Origin: an uncultured Pelagibacteraceae bacterium
GTDB taxonomy: Bacteria > Pseudomonadota > Alphaproteobacteria > Pelagibacterales > Pelagibacteraceae
Assembly: GCA_902605035.1 (NCBI GenBank)
Contig: CACLBB010000008.1
Location: forward strand, 1 to 64,000
DNA length: 64,000 nt
Direction: 5' to 3'
The notes under the pieces are model-generated. The model searched no databases and was not told where the DNA came from. It saw only the letters and a list, made by a program, of their open reading frames with translations. The position numbers and the translations under genes are program-made. This document shows, piece after piece, positions 35,772 through 39,599 of this stretch. Position 1 is the stretch's first letter. Each line of letters opens with the position of its first letter.

Positions 35772-37160
35772 ATGTCATTTAATTGTAGGTTTGCGCCCTC
35801 TCCTACTGGGCCTCTTCATATCGGCGGTGTAAGAACAGCTTTATTTAATTGGCTGCTAGCAAAAAAAAATAAAGGTAAATATTTTTTACGAATAGAGGAT
35901 ACTGATCAAGAAAGATCTAAAGAAGAATTCAAAAATCAAATTATCTCTTCACTTTCTTGGCTAGGTATTGAACATGACGGTAAGGAATATATTCAATCAA
36001 AAAATATCTCTAAGCATGTTGCCGTAGTAGAAGAGCTTCTAAAAAAAGGATTTGCATATAAATGTTATTGCTCAGAAGAAGAAATCCAAGAACAAAAGGA
36101 ACAATGTAAAAAACAAGGTATACCGTATGTTTATAATAGAAAGTGGAGAGACGTAAAAGACCTTAAAATTCCAGAAGGTGTAAAACCAGTAATAAGATTT
36201 AAAAGTAAAATTTCAGGAAATACAATTATAAAAGATCTGGTTCAAGGGGAGAGAAATATTTCAAATTCTACAATTGAAGATTTTGTAATATTGAGAAAAG
36301 ATAAATCACCAACATATCAATTATCAGCAACAGCAGATGATCACGAGATGAAAATTACTCATGTGATTAGAGGTGATGATCATATGATTAATTCTTTTAA
36401 ACAAAAGCAGATCTATGATGCAATGGGTTGGGAAGTTCCAAACTTTGCTCATATTCCATTAATTCATAGTGAGCAAGGAAAAAAATTATCTAAAAGAGAT
36501 AACGCATCCACCCTTGAAGATTATGTTAAAATTGGAATTATTTCAGACGCTTTAAGAAATTATTTATTAAGATTAGGATGGTCCTATAAAGATAAAGAGA
36601 TTTTTACTAAACAAGAAAGCATTGATTTATTTGATTTAAGCGGTGTTGGTAAATCGCCCTCAAAATTAGATATGAATAGGATTTATTCAATTAATGAAAC
36701 GTATATAAAAAAAATGGATGAAAAAGATCTATTTAATTTCTTTAAAGAATACGTTTCGAAATACAAAAAACCTATAGATCAAGCAAAAGAAAATGTTCTT
36801 CTAAAATCAATGAGTTTCTTGAAGAATAAAGCAAAAACTTTAGAAGATATTTGGAACAATTCTCAATACATTTTTAATAATAAAATTGAGATTAGCTCAG
36901 ATGATAAAAAACTAATTGATGATTTATCTAAGATAGTAATTAAAGACTTTATAAATGAATATGAAAAACTATCCTCTTTGTCTAGAGAAACATTAGAGCC
37001 TATAATTAAATCTCTCATTGATAAACATAAGACTAATTTTAAAGGTGTGGGACAACCTTTAAGAATAGCGTTAGTAGGTTCAAGATTTGGGCCAGGTTTA
37101 TATGATTTGATCTTATCTTTAGACAAGGCAGAGGTAATAAAAAGATTAAGTAAAATTTAA
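35772..37160 (+). CDS. gltX: Glutamyl-tRNA synthetase
   Basis: 462 residues, class I: FAPSPTGPLHIGGVRTALFN (HIGH-type motif) and KKLSKRD (KMSKS-type motif), with the RIEDTDQERS segment and a partial cysteine zinc site CYCSEEEI...C. Charges tRNA-Glu and, in organisms lacking GlnRS, tRNA-Gln for later amidation. It shares a base with the next gene. Many alphaproteobacteria have two gltX copies, so which one this is cannot be told here. Confidence 0.95.
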   Translation: MSFNCRFAPSPTGPLHIGGVRTALFNWLLAKKNKGKYFLRIEDTDQERSKEEFKNQIISSLSWLGIEHDGKEYIQSKNISKHVAVVEELLKKGFAYKCYCSEEEIQEQKEQCKKQGIPYVYNRKWRDVKDLKIPEGVKPVIRFKSKISGNTIIKDLVQGERNISNSTIEDFVILRKDKSPTYQLSATADDHEMKITHVIRGDDHMINSFKQKQIYDAMGWEVPNFAHIPLIHSEQGKKLSKRDNASTLEDYVKIGIISDALRNYLLRLGWSYKDKEIFTKQESIDLFDLSGVGKSPSKLDMNRIYSINETYIKKMDEKDLFNFFKEYVSKYKKPIDQAKENVLLKSMSFLKNKAKTLEDIWNNSQYIFNNKIEISSDDKKLIDDLSKIVIKDFINEYEKLSSLSRETLEPIIKSLIDKHKTNFKGVGQPLRIALVGSRFGPGLYDLILSLDKAEVIKRLSKI

Positions 37161-37930
37161 TGAAAGATGCATCATCTTTTAGAAAAAGAAAAAGTTCTTT
37201 TTATGATAAAAAGTCTAATTCACCTTTTAAGATAAGTAGATCTAAATTTTTTAATTTCCTAAGTTGTAAACGATGTTTCTACTTAGATCGTGTCAAGGGT
37301 TTAAAAGAACCATCAATGCCAGGATGGGCTCTTAATATTGCAGTAGATGAATTACTTAAAAAGGAATTTGATCAATATCGAAAAATACAAAAACCTCATC
37401 CAATAATGGTTAAGCATAATTTGAATTTCGTTCCTTATATGCACAAAGATTTAGATGTTTGGAGAAATTCATTAAAAGGTGGAATTTCATATCTTGATGA
37501 AAAAACAAATTTAATTATTTATGGTGGAATTGATGATGTTTGGTTTGATTTAAAAGAAAAAAAATTAGTTGTAGTTGATTATAAAGCTCAATCATCAAAT
37601 TACCCTATTACTATTTCGTCATACTTAGATGCAGAATGGCATTTGAGTTATAAACTTCAAATGGATATATATGTACATATCTTAAGAAAAATGAATTTTA
37701 AAGTTTCCAATTTATCATACTTTTATGTTTGTAATGGACTCAAAACAAATGATAAATTCAATAATAAAATAGAATTTTCAACAACATTAATACCTTATCG
37801 TGTTGATACTTCATGGATTGAAAATAAATTATCTGAAATGAAAGATGTTTTGAATTCCGAAAAAGTTCCAGATACAGAAAAAAACTGCGAAAAATGTGCG
37901 TACCTAAAAGGTGGAAAAGATTTTTTTTGA
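37160..37930 (+). CDS. PD-(D/E)XK nuclease-like protein with two CxxC pairs
   Basis: 256 residues resembling RecB/Cas4-type nucleases. SRSKFFNFLSCKRCFYLDR near the N-terminus matches the S-x-S-x-[LF]...C-P-x-x-[FY] opening of these enzymes. The catalytic core is readable as GGIDDVW followed by VVDYKAQSS, i.e. D...D-x-K. Cysteine pairs C36/C39 and C243/C246 at the two ends could hold a 4Fe-4S cluster as in Cas4/AddB nucleases. It overlaps gltX by one base; no cas or recombination genes are nearby. Substrate unknown; DNA repair after lexA-linked damage is speculation. Confidence 0.75.
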   Translation: MKDASSFRKRKSSFYDKKSNSPFKISRSKFFNFLSCKRCFYLDRVKGLKEPSMPGWALNIAVDELLKKEFDQYRKIQKPHPIMVKHNLNFVPYMHKDLDVWRNSLKGGISYLDEKTNLIIYGGIDDVWFDLKEKKLVVVDYKAQSSNYPITISSYLDAEWHLSYKLQMDIYVHILRKMNFKVSNLSYFYVCNGLKTNDKFNNKIEFSTTLIPYRVDTSWIENKLSEMKDVLNSEKVPDTEKNCEKCAYLKGGKDFF

Positions 37931-37936
37931 AATTAT

Positions 37937-38593
37937 CTATCTATTATTATTCTCATTATCATCTTTAGATGATTGATCGGAATTCTCTGATTGATTTTCT
38001 TCTTGTTGCTCTGGTTCCGGTGTTGGCTCTGGTTCCGGTGTTGGCTCTGGTTCCGGTGTTGGCTCTGGTTCAGGTGTTGGCTCTGGTTCCGGTTGTTGAT
38101 TTGACTCCTCTCGTCCAATGTCTGCCGCTGTCTTAGGTTCAGGCTCTCTTCTCATAAAGAAATAAATTCCTGCTGCGATAACAGCTATTGCTCCTAAGAT
38201 ATAAAGAACTAAGTTTAACCAACCGGCTTCTTCTTCTTCTGCCTCTTGAGTTGGTGTAAGTTCAGGTTCTTCAGGCTTAGCTTCTTGTTCCTGAGATTGT
38301 TCTTGATTTACCTCTTCTTCATTAGGTTCTGTTTCTTTAGCTGGTTCTGGCTCTGGTTCAGGCGTTGGCTCGGGCTCAGGCTCGGGCTGAGGCTCAGGCT
38401 CGGGCTCGGGCTCAGGCTCAGGCTCAGGCTCGGGCTCAGGCTCGGGCTCAGGCTTTATTTCTGGAGGAGAAGTAATAACTTCTTCAGTTTTAACAACTTC
38501 CGCTTCAGCTACTTCATCATCTTTAGGCTTTGGTGAGATAACACCCGTGGCTACTAAAATCGCACCTATACCAATTACGATAATAAAGTCCAT
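37937..38593 (-). CDS. Glu/Pro-repeat protein with two membrane helices
   Basis: 218 residues. Helix 1 is at the very N-terminus (about 3-19), followed by an acidic stretch and a long Glu-Pro dipeptide array (about 48-84). After an acidic Gln/Glu region comes helix 2 (about 125-147, [20 protein letters not shown]) with a basic MRRE stop. A second array of EPEPTP units (about 168-195) is followed by a Ser/Asn/Asp tail. Glu-Pro arrays are stiff, as in TonB, so it might span the periplasm, but there is no TonB C-terminal domain. Not recognised as a family. The DNA is strikingly GC-rich for this genome. Confidence 0.75.
38009..38094. repeat. 18-base tandem repeat encoding the second Glu-Pro array
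   Basis: The unit CTCTGGTTCCGGTGTTGG is repeated four times from 38009 (38009-38080) with one C/A variant in the fourth copy, then a partial fifth copy. In the minus-strand gene each unit encodes PTPEPE. The near identity of copies suggests recent slippage or recombination expansion. Confidence 0.9.
38341..38453. repeat. 6/12-base tandem repeat encoding the first Glu-Pro array
   Basis: Units of GGCTCA and GGCTCG alternate irregularly across about 110 bases, encoding Glu-Pro dipeptides on the minus strand with occasional Gln or Thr. GC content is far above the surroundings. The mixture of two synonymous units (GAG CCT/GAG CCC-type) argues for repeated slippage with later point changes. Confidence 0.9.
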
Positions 38594-38672: not shown

Positions 38673-39599
38673 TTAATTATTTAATGCTAATAAATGCTGC
38701 TTAATACTTTCTGATAGAGCTAACAAATCATAACCACCCTCCAAAAATGAAATTATTCTACCCTCAGAATGTATATTTCCTAGATCAACAATTTTTTTTG
38801 TTATTTTGTAAAAATCTTCTGATTCTAAATTAATATTTGCTAGAGGGTCTCTAACATGGGCATCAAATCCAGCAGAGATTAAAATTATCTCTGGTTTGAA
38901 TTTATCTATTGGTCTCAGTATTTTTTGATCAAATATTTTTAAAAATTCTTTACCTTTCATCCCATTTTTCAATGGTGCGTTAAAAATATTGCCTACGCCT
39001 GTTTCTTGTTCAGAACCTGTACCTGGAAATAATGGAAATTCATGGGACGAGGCATATAATATAGTTTCATCATTATAAAAAATCTCTTGTGTTCCATTAC
39101 CATGATGTACGTCGAAATCTATTATAGCTATTTTGTTAACTTTGTACTTATTCTGCAAATATTTAGCCGTAACCGCAATATTATTTACAAAACAAAAACC
39201 CATAGCTTTTGTTGCCTCGGCATGATGCCCTGGGGGTCTAATAGCACAAAATACTCTTTCATTTTTTTTCATTAAATCATCAGCTGCAGCGATTCCAGCT
39301 CCACAGGATCTTAAAATAGCTTTTTTACTATTAGGACAAAGCATAGTGTCTGCATAAGGTTCTTTTTCTACACCTATCAATCCTGATTTAGGTATATTAG
39401 AAAATATTTTTTCAATATGATTTTTGGGATGAACTAAAGAAATTGTTTCAATATCAGCAAGAGGAGCATCCTTAAAATTAATTTCAAAATCTTTTATTTG
39501 TTTAATAGATTCTAAGATACTATCTATTCTTTCTTTTCTTTCGGGATGATTAAATCCATTATCTTTGAGCAAACAATCGCTGTGTTTATAAACTAACAT
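38673..39599 (-). CDS. Histone deacetylase-family amidohydrolase
   Basis: 308 residues with the class-II-like deacetylase motifs RPPGHHAE (catalytic histidines), GFCFVNNIAV, IDFDVHHGNGTQ (zinc ligands D and H), and ISAGFDAHVRDPL (third zinc ligand). Bacterial members deacetylate acetylpolyamines, acetylated lysines or other amides; the substrate here is not evident. The start shares one base with the lpxB stop, so it is carried at the end of the lipid A operon. Confidence 0.88.
   Translation of the reverse strand: MLVYKHSDCLLKDNGFNHPERKERIDSILESIKQIKDFEINFKDAPLADIETISLVHPKNHIEKIFSNIPKSGLIGVEKEPYADTMLCPNSKKAILRSCGAGIAAADDLMKKNERVFCAIRPPGHHAEATKAMGFCFVNNIAVTAKYLQNKYKVNKIAIIDFDVHHGNGTQEIFYNDETILYASSHEFPLFPGTGSEQETGVGNIFNAPLKNGMKGKEFLKIFDQKILRPIDKFKPEIILISAGFDAHVRDPLANINLESEDFYKITKKIVDLGNIHSEGRIISFLEGGYDLLALSESIKQHLLALNN

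Follow-up and report, generated by a model that had tools for sequence, protein, structure and literature searches.

Several described proteins resemble parts of a protein encoded in the window, by which we mean the whole analysed stretch of 64,000 nucleotides from an uncultured member of the Pelagibacteraceae. The linker of TonB is proline-rich with Glu-Pro repeats, as described in the accessible part of PMC10771500. In TonB an inner-membrane anchor is followed by these repeats, and the same order is seen in the window protein; however, the window protein has no C-terminal TonB domain and shows a conserved second helix and a probably cytoplasmic tail instead. The Ala-Lys-Glu helical domain of TolA is resembled by the linker of a group of Ala-Glu relatives, but these relatives lack the C-terminal domain of TolA and likewise carry a second helix and a tail. 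Trypanosome procyclin (PARP) is like the window protein in its Glu-Pro dipeptide repeats only, as are other proteins with such repeats. Caulobacter PbpC binds BacA via a cytoplasmic region in which a conserved terminal peptide is followed by a stretch rich in proline, another conserved peptide and a basic part next to the membrane, a layout that parallels the tail of the window protein (PMC12448750, in the part of its text that is accessible). PbpC differs in being a cell-wall synthase with an N-terminal tail, whereas the window protein has no enzymatic domain, and linkage to bactofilin is seen in only two genomes of the window family.

SAR11 bacteria are the most abundant bacteria in the ocean, and their genomes are strongly reduced. 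Despite this reduction, the repeat-expandable gene reported here has been retained by most of the genomes sampled from its genus. No description of the protein was found among the titles and abstracts that searches on SAR11/Pelagibacter and on such linkers gave, or in the accessible parts of PMC9426551, PMC2217521 and PMC7542561. The gene, its parts and its neighbours are as follows.

37937..38593, minus strand: gene of the 218-aa two-helix Glu-Pro protein (ATG start, stop codon included)
38540..38590, minus strand: hydrophobic segment 1, residues 2-18 (AlphaFold helix 3-15; no Lys/Arg ahead; pN/pS 0.475)
38345..38455, minus strand: array 1, Glu-Pro, residues 47-83, between both helices (predicted to be periplasmic; TRF, length variable in relatives)
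38150..38221, minus strand: hydrophobic segment 2, about residues 125-148 (AlphaFold helix 120-148; pN/pS 0.084)
38111..38152, minus strand: conserved juxtamembrane stretch, predicted short helix (putatively cytoplasmic; AlphaFold, conservation)
38004..38098, minus strand: array 2, 18-bp units encoding Pro-Glu-Pro-Glu-Pro-Thr, in the C-terminal tail (putatively cytoplasmic; TRF)
37940..37978, minus strand: conserved C-terminal peptide DQSS..D..ENNNR (pN/pS 0.173, 38 sequences)
38673..39599, minus strand: histone-deacetylase-family protein, conserved upstream neighbour (Pfam Hist_deacetyl, 1.7e-87)
37160..37930, plus strand: PD-(D/E)XK nuclease superfamily protein, conserved convergent neighbour (Pfam PDDEXK_1, 4.3e-10)

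Judged by its conservation, the open reading frame at 37937-38593 is a real, conserved gene. The frames of its relatives are open over their full length, which supports this assignment on the minus strand, and no stop or frameshift occurs in the family members inspected; the original prediction of a maintained protein, which frameshifts in relatives would contradict, is thus borne out. The window protein follows the plan of the family, with an N-terminal hydrophobic helix, a low-complexity linker, a helix 2 ending in YF(F/Y)xR and an acidic tail. In L006, L010, L013 and their relatives, the frame continues without a stop for some 37 codons ahead of the ATG used here, and an earlier start is possible in this group. 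On the plus strand, an antisense open reading frame of 96 aa (38246-38536), rich in Leu, Arg and Phe, runs through array 1 and is most likely a by-product of the repeat.

Relatives are present in 25 of 61 genomes (the window's own and its relatives). In a sample of 398 genomes from the order, a helix-2 profile matches 38 of the 51 genomes of the window's genus; the other 13 give no match, so that the family is patchy. Among named genomes, 109 stretches fit the sequence pattern, 92 were confirmed and 80 were kept, and all 80 titles kept are Pelagibacter, Pelagibacteraceae or Pelagibacterales, with HIMB058 among them. The sample of the class gave matches in two of 386 genomes besides the window's own; one of them (L205) is a 165-aa frame of a different kind, and the other sits within a 1403-aa frame. 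By these searches, the two-helix linker family is restricted to the Pelagibacteraceae. Two sets of matches were not counted as members. The first consists of 19 of the 21 matches in genus g7, which are 316-326 aa long; the one inspected (L116) is a transporter-like frame that matches in its last helix only. The remaining two g7 matches (G446 and G368) are Ala-Glu members. The second set, L068 and L069, are ribosomal-protein-like frames with Ala-rich tails.

The Glu-Pro arrays are the strongest tandem repeats in the window. TRF reports array 2 with a period of 18 at 38004-38098 (5.3 copies, score 167) and array 1 with a period of 6/24 at 38349-38454 and 38367-38454 (scores 128 and 148), whereas the next-highest score in the window is 99, for a two-copy repeat, and the maximum across 20 first-order Markov windows used as a control is 45-93. 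Array 1 consists of 6-bp units mixed into a 24-bp higher unit. The arrangement originally proposed, with two arrays flanking helix 2, stands on the evidence of the reading frame, TRF and the AlphaFold helices, but array 1 shows no clean 12-base unit, given the 24-bp higher unit. In the close relative L002, array 1 is built of 18-bp Pro-Thr-Pro-Glu-Pro-Glu units like those of the window's array 2, and exchange between arrays 1 and 2 may have occurred. Many relatives keep the acidic Pro/Glu/Gln tail without the 18-bp array.

The gene is GC-rich in an AT-rich genome, as first noted, with a GC content of 0.461 versus 0.285 for the window. The value is 0.381 for the gene without its arrays, 0.694 for array 1 and 0.595 for array 2. 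At third codon positions, GC reaches 0.62 in array 1 but is 0.29 in array 2, against a value of 0.18 for ten neighbouring genes; therefore, the GC peak is mostly a matter of amino-acid choice, that is, of Glu and Pro codon content, and a synonymous GC excess is confined to array 1. There, Glu is encoded by GAG in 14 of 16 codons, compared with 39 of 195 in the ten neighbouring genes.

AlphaFold run on 14 sequences gives a model of low confidence (mean pLDDT 59) with helices at 3-15, 120-148 and 156-165 and no regular structure in the Glu-Pro linker. Over the 15 residues flanking helix 2, the mean charge is -4.4 before and +1.1 after the helix, with the same direction in all 87 members. The positive-inside rule orients membrane helices with their positively charged flank towards the cytoplasm; therefore, this bias would place the tail in the cytoplasm and the loop in the periplasm. 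Array 1 is accordingly predicted to be periplasmic and array 2 is probably cytoplasmic, so that the idea of Glu-Pro segments acting as a periplasmic spacer would hold for array 1 but not for array 2. Helix 1 has no positive N-terminal region (Lys or Arg occurs in the first four residues of none of the 87 members), a feature not usually seen in N-in anchors or signal peptides.

Sequence constraint is distributed unevenly along the protein. In the Glu-Pro members, pN/pS (pooled pairwise and uncorrected) is 0.084 for helix 2 (42 sequences), 0.173 for the last 12 residues (38 sequences) and 0.236 for the juxtamembrane stretch (42 sequences), and it is 0.475 for helix 1 (41 sequences) and 0.549 for the 21 residues ahead of helix 2 (42 sequences). 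The core of helix 2 is identical in 34 of 42 sequences, and Asp206, Gln207, Ser208 and Ser209 are invariant in alignment A2. Purifying selection is strong on helix 2 and on the C-terminal peptide, and it also acts on the juxtamembrane stretch.

The linker behaves differently in length. Among the distinct frames collected for the family, 89 have the helix-2 motif, 87 of them complete. In these 87 Glu-Pro members, the loop measures 83-130 aa (mean 109.5, SD 7.9) and its array part 16-56 aa. Of 30 near-identical pairs (which are not independent), 25 are unequal in loop length, and it differs even between members that are at least 98% identical in the helix-2 region. The steps are multiples of 6 bp in 19 of the 25 differing pairs, and the other six all involve L048. 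The Glu-Pro array thus grows and shrinks by 6-bp steps. Most family genomes are single-cell or metagenome assemblies, and the copies in G028, G033, G020 and G170 are split at contig ends inside the repeat; exact copy numbers are therefore provisional. The expectation that array length varies is supported for close relatives, and a fixed copy number was not seen. L048 is mosaic in structure. It shares its C-terminal part and downstream flank with L062 at 99.7 and 99.5% identity, respectively, and its N-terminal part has no match in L062. This places the junction within or close to the Glu-Pro array, and L047 shows a similar but weaker pattern.

A contingency locus, switched by changes in repeat length, would be expected to change its copy number as rapidly as this one does, but the steps are of 6 bp or otherwise in frame and leave every inspected member free of stops and frameshifts; we disfavour this explanation as very improbable. 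The tolerant linker length also argues against a strict ruler, and in this strict form the ruler role that had been suggested for the Glu-Pro segments is not supported. Of the readings considered, that of a spacer has the best support. Within the loop, array and non-array parts show a weak tendency to compensate each other in length (r -0.37, p 0.059, permutation p 0.02; 27 divergent representatives). Stronger correlations among divergent representatives (r -0.62 and r -0.66) were rejected, because interrupted arrays and early PEP motifs had been counted in the wrong part, and the way the array was cut inflated the values.

Comparison with known families bears on a related proposal, a periplasm-spanning ruler or force transmitter like TonB or TolA. 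In NCBIfam, the TonB model gives a match to the Glu-Pro region at 5.9e-11, and the TolA model gives one to the Ala-Glu linker of L024 at 2.6e-8. However, the scores of 42.7 bits against a cut-off of 315 and 33.5 bits against a cut-off of 59.45 are far below what these models require, and the matches cover the array and the linker only. There is no C-terminal receptor-binding domain: Pfam gives no match to the C-terminal TonB domain, and the C-terminus is a short, acidic, low-complexity tail after the second helix. Together with the variable loop length, this makes such a ruler or force transmitter improbable. The other similarities are also confined to repeats. Pfam Trypan_PARP (9.2e-05, 22.9 bits against a cut-off of 100) matches the repeat only, and the strongest sequence matches in the PDB cover the Glu-Pro arrays. 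No Pfam model reaches its cut-off among the members scanned and none does so in NCBIfam, in keeping with the earlier statement that no known domain is attached.

Distant relatives in the Pelagibacteraceae keep the helix-linker-helix-tail plan with linkers of other chemistry. L024 (G026) has an Ala-Glu linker, and a search with it retrieved more members of this type: L073 (G131, same genus) and L072, L114 and L115 (another genus). Lys-Pro linkers are found in L066 (G065), L209 (G121) and L070 (G127), the last on a contig that begins within the gene, and L067 (G072) has a mixed Lys/Pro/Gln/Val linker. Homologues with the two helices but without a repeat linker were sought, and none was found. 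Because linkers can mislead, we ran a profile of helix 2 alone, built from 55 Glu-Pro sequences. It matches the Ala-Glu members L073 (1.5e-6), L024 (3.9e-6), and L115 and L114 (1.5e-3), as well as the Lys-Pro member L066 (2.2e-4), whereas the best of 172 control frames has an E-value of 5.3 (the full set of 173 includes the window gene itself). This profile missed the mixed type of G072 (E 16), and L072 and L209 are not among its listed matches. A Lys-Pro profile, which matches in ten of 397 genomes overall, finds the Ala-Glu member of G131 (3.8e-8), the mixed-type member of G072 (3.4e-7) and seven Glu-Pro members, the best at 2.6e-6 and the window's at 5.2e-5. Homology between the linker types, as judged from these profiles, rests on more than the linkers.

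The linker types differ in their predicted physics. AlphaFold run on five Ala-Glu sequences gives a model, again of low confidence (mean pLDDT 62), with a 76-residue linker helix at 35-110. With textbook rises, the extended length would be about 11-12 nm for a polyproline II array of 40 residues and likewise for a helix of 76 residues. Other Ala-Glu members are much shorter (L115 has 171 aa in total), and a fixed linker length is therefore not claimed. Lys-Pro linkers are opposite in charge to the Glu-Pro type; therefore, no charge-based role can be common to all types.

We tentatively favour a SAR11-restricted inner-membrane tether in which helix 2 and the conserved cytoplasmic tail would do the work and the linker would be an extended, length-tolerant spacer. 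This explanation draws on sequence, charges and models, and the function is a predicted one. The protein would consist of a short N-terminal hydrophobic helix, a low-complexity linker of about 60-130 residues, a highly conserved second helix and an acidic disordered tail, the linker being periplasmic and the tail cytoplasmic. Extension of the linker may matter more than its exact length or sequence, helix 2 may pack with a partner or with itself, and a cytoplasmic partner may dock at the end of the tail; the protein would thus tether at the membrane and carry a spacer on each side of it. The arrays could instead be slippage-prone neutral filler that merely connects the two helices, so that any soluble linker would serve. 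Array length and chemistry do vary freely, and selection is concentrated outside the linker, as neutral filler would have it. However, all 87 complete Glu-Pro members have a long, biased linker (array part of at least 16 aa), the replacement linkers are again extended or helical and of low complexity, and the permutation result (p 0.02) points to some residual constraint on total length; we regard neutral filler as possible but rather unlikely.

Returning to the tether, a more far-reaching version is conceivable, although we consider it doubtful. One family may have swapped its spacer physics several times, among a polyproline rod of Glu-Pro, a single helix of Ala-Glu and a chain of Lys-Pro, with helix 2 and the tail still recognisable. 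Selection by the cell would then be for an extended spacer regardless of sequence, charge and exact length, and the tail would tether a cytoplasmic scaffold to the envelope; in at least one genus this scaffold would be bactofilin. At the level of sequence, the family is an uncharacterised and lineage-restricted one, in which anchor and tail are conserved and the spacer is plastic. It offers a natural series of linkers, differing in stiffness, charge and length on one conserved anchor, that can be used to ask what linkers must provide, and it is a candidate component of the envelope in cells where the biology of that structure is poorly understood.

The bactofilin lead comes from G065 and G121, which belong to one genus and in which the member lies directly after two bactofilin genes (two of the three member-bearing genomes of the genus). 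The pairs are located at 518-1873 of L066 and 1441-2839 of L209, with Pfam bactofilin matches of 2.2e-18 and 4.6e-18, and the two members are 35% identical. The protein might accordingly be a membrane client or anchor of bactofilin, the conserved end peptide of its cytoplasmic tail binding bactofilin and so tying cell-shape filaments to the envelope. A QSS..DDEN-like C-terminal end occurs both in the G065 member, which is of the Lys-Pro type, and in the Glu-Pro members. PbpC of Caulobacter binds BacA via a comparable cytoplasmic region (accessible part of PMC12448750), and a single bactofilin gene is present in 25 of the 26 genomes tested from the window's genus; in all, bactofilin was found in 27 of 40 genomes tested. 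However, no bactofilin was detected in the member-bearing genomes G253, G446, G368 and G072 (none of four; g7/g15), and in six of eight further genomes from the G065 genus the bactofilin pair precedes a gene called helicase-like on the basis of its sequence motifs, and no member is present. In the window's genus, the two genes are unlinked, and bactofilin is present regardless of the member. A bactofilin client is therefore unlikely, and a general link between member and bactofilin is not upheld as a rule, given the bactofilin pairs without a member and the members in genomes without detected bactofilin. The member of G072 also comes after a helicase-like gene, which hints at an old shared neighbourhood.

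Both the deacetylase-family gene and the PD-(D/E)XK gene are present at 20 of the 25 loci checked and one of them at three loci, where contigs end nearby; the two loci with neither are those of the Ala-Glu relatives. In L074 and L077 an extra gene is inserted between, and in L076 a different frame replaces the nuclease gene. The PD-(D/E)XK gene is patchy in the order (57 of 398 genomes), and a functional link to it was rejected, since each gene occurs without the other; its place beside the member in the window's genus is taken as synteny alone. The PD-(D/E)XK protein itself (37160-37930) carries paired cysteines near both ends (SCKRC and CEKC).
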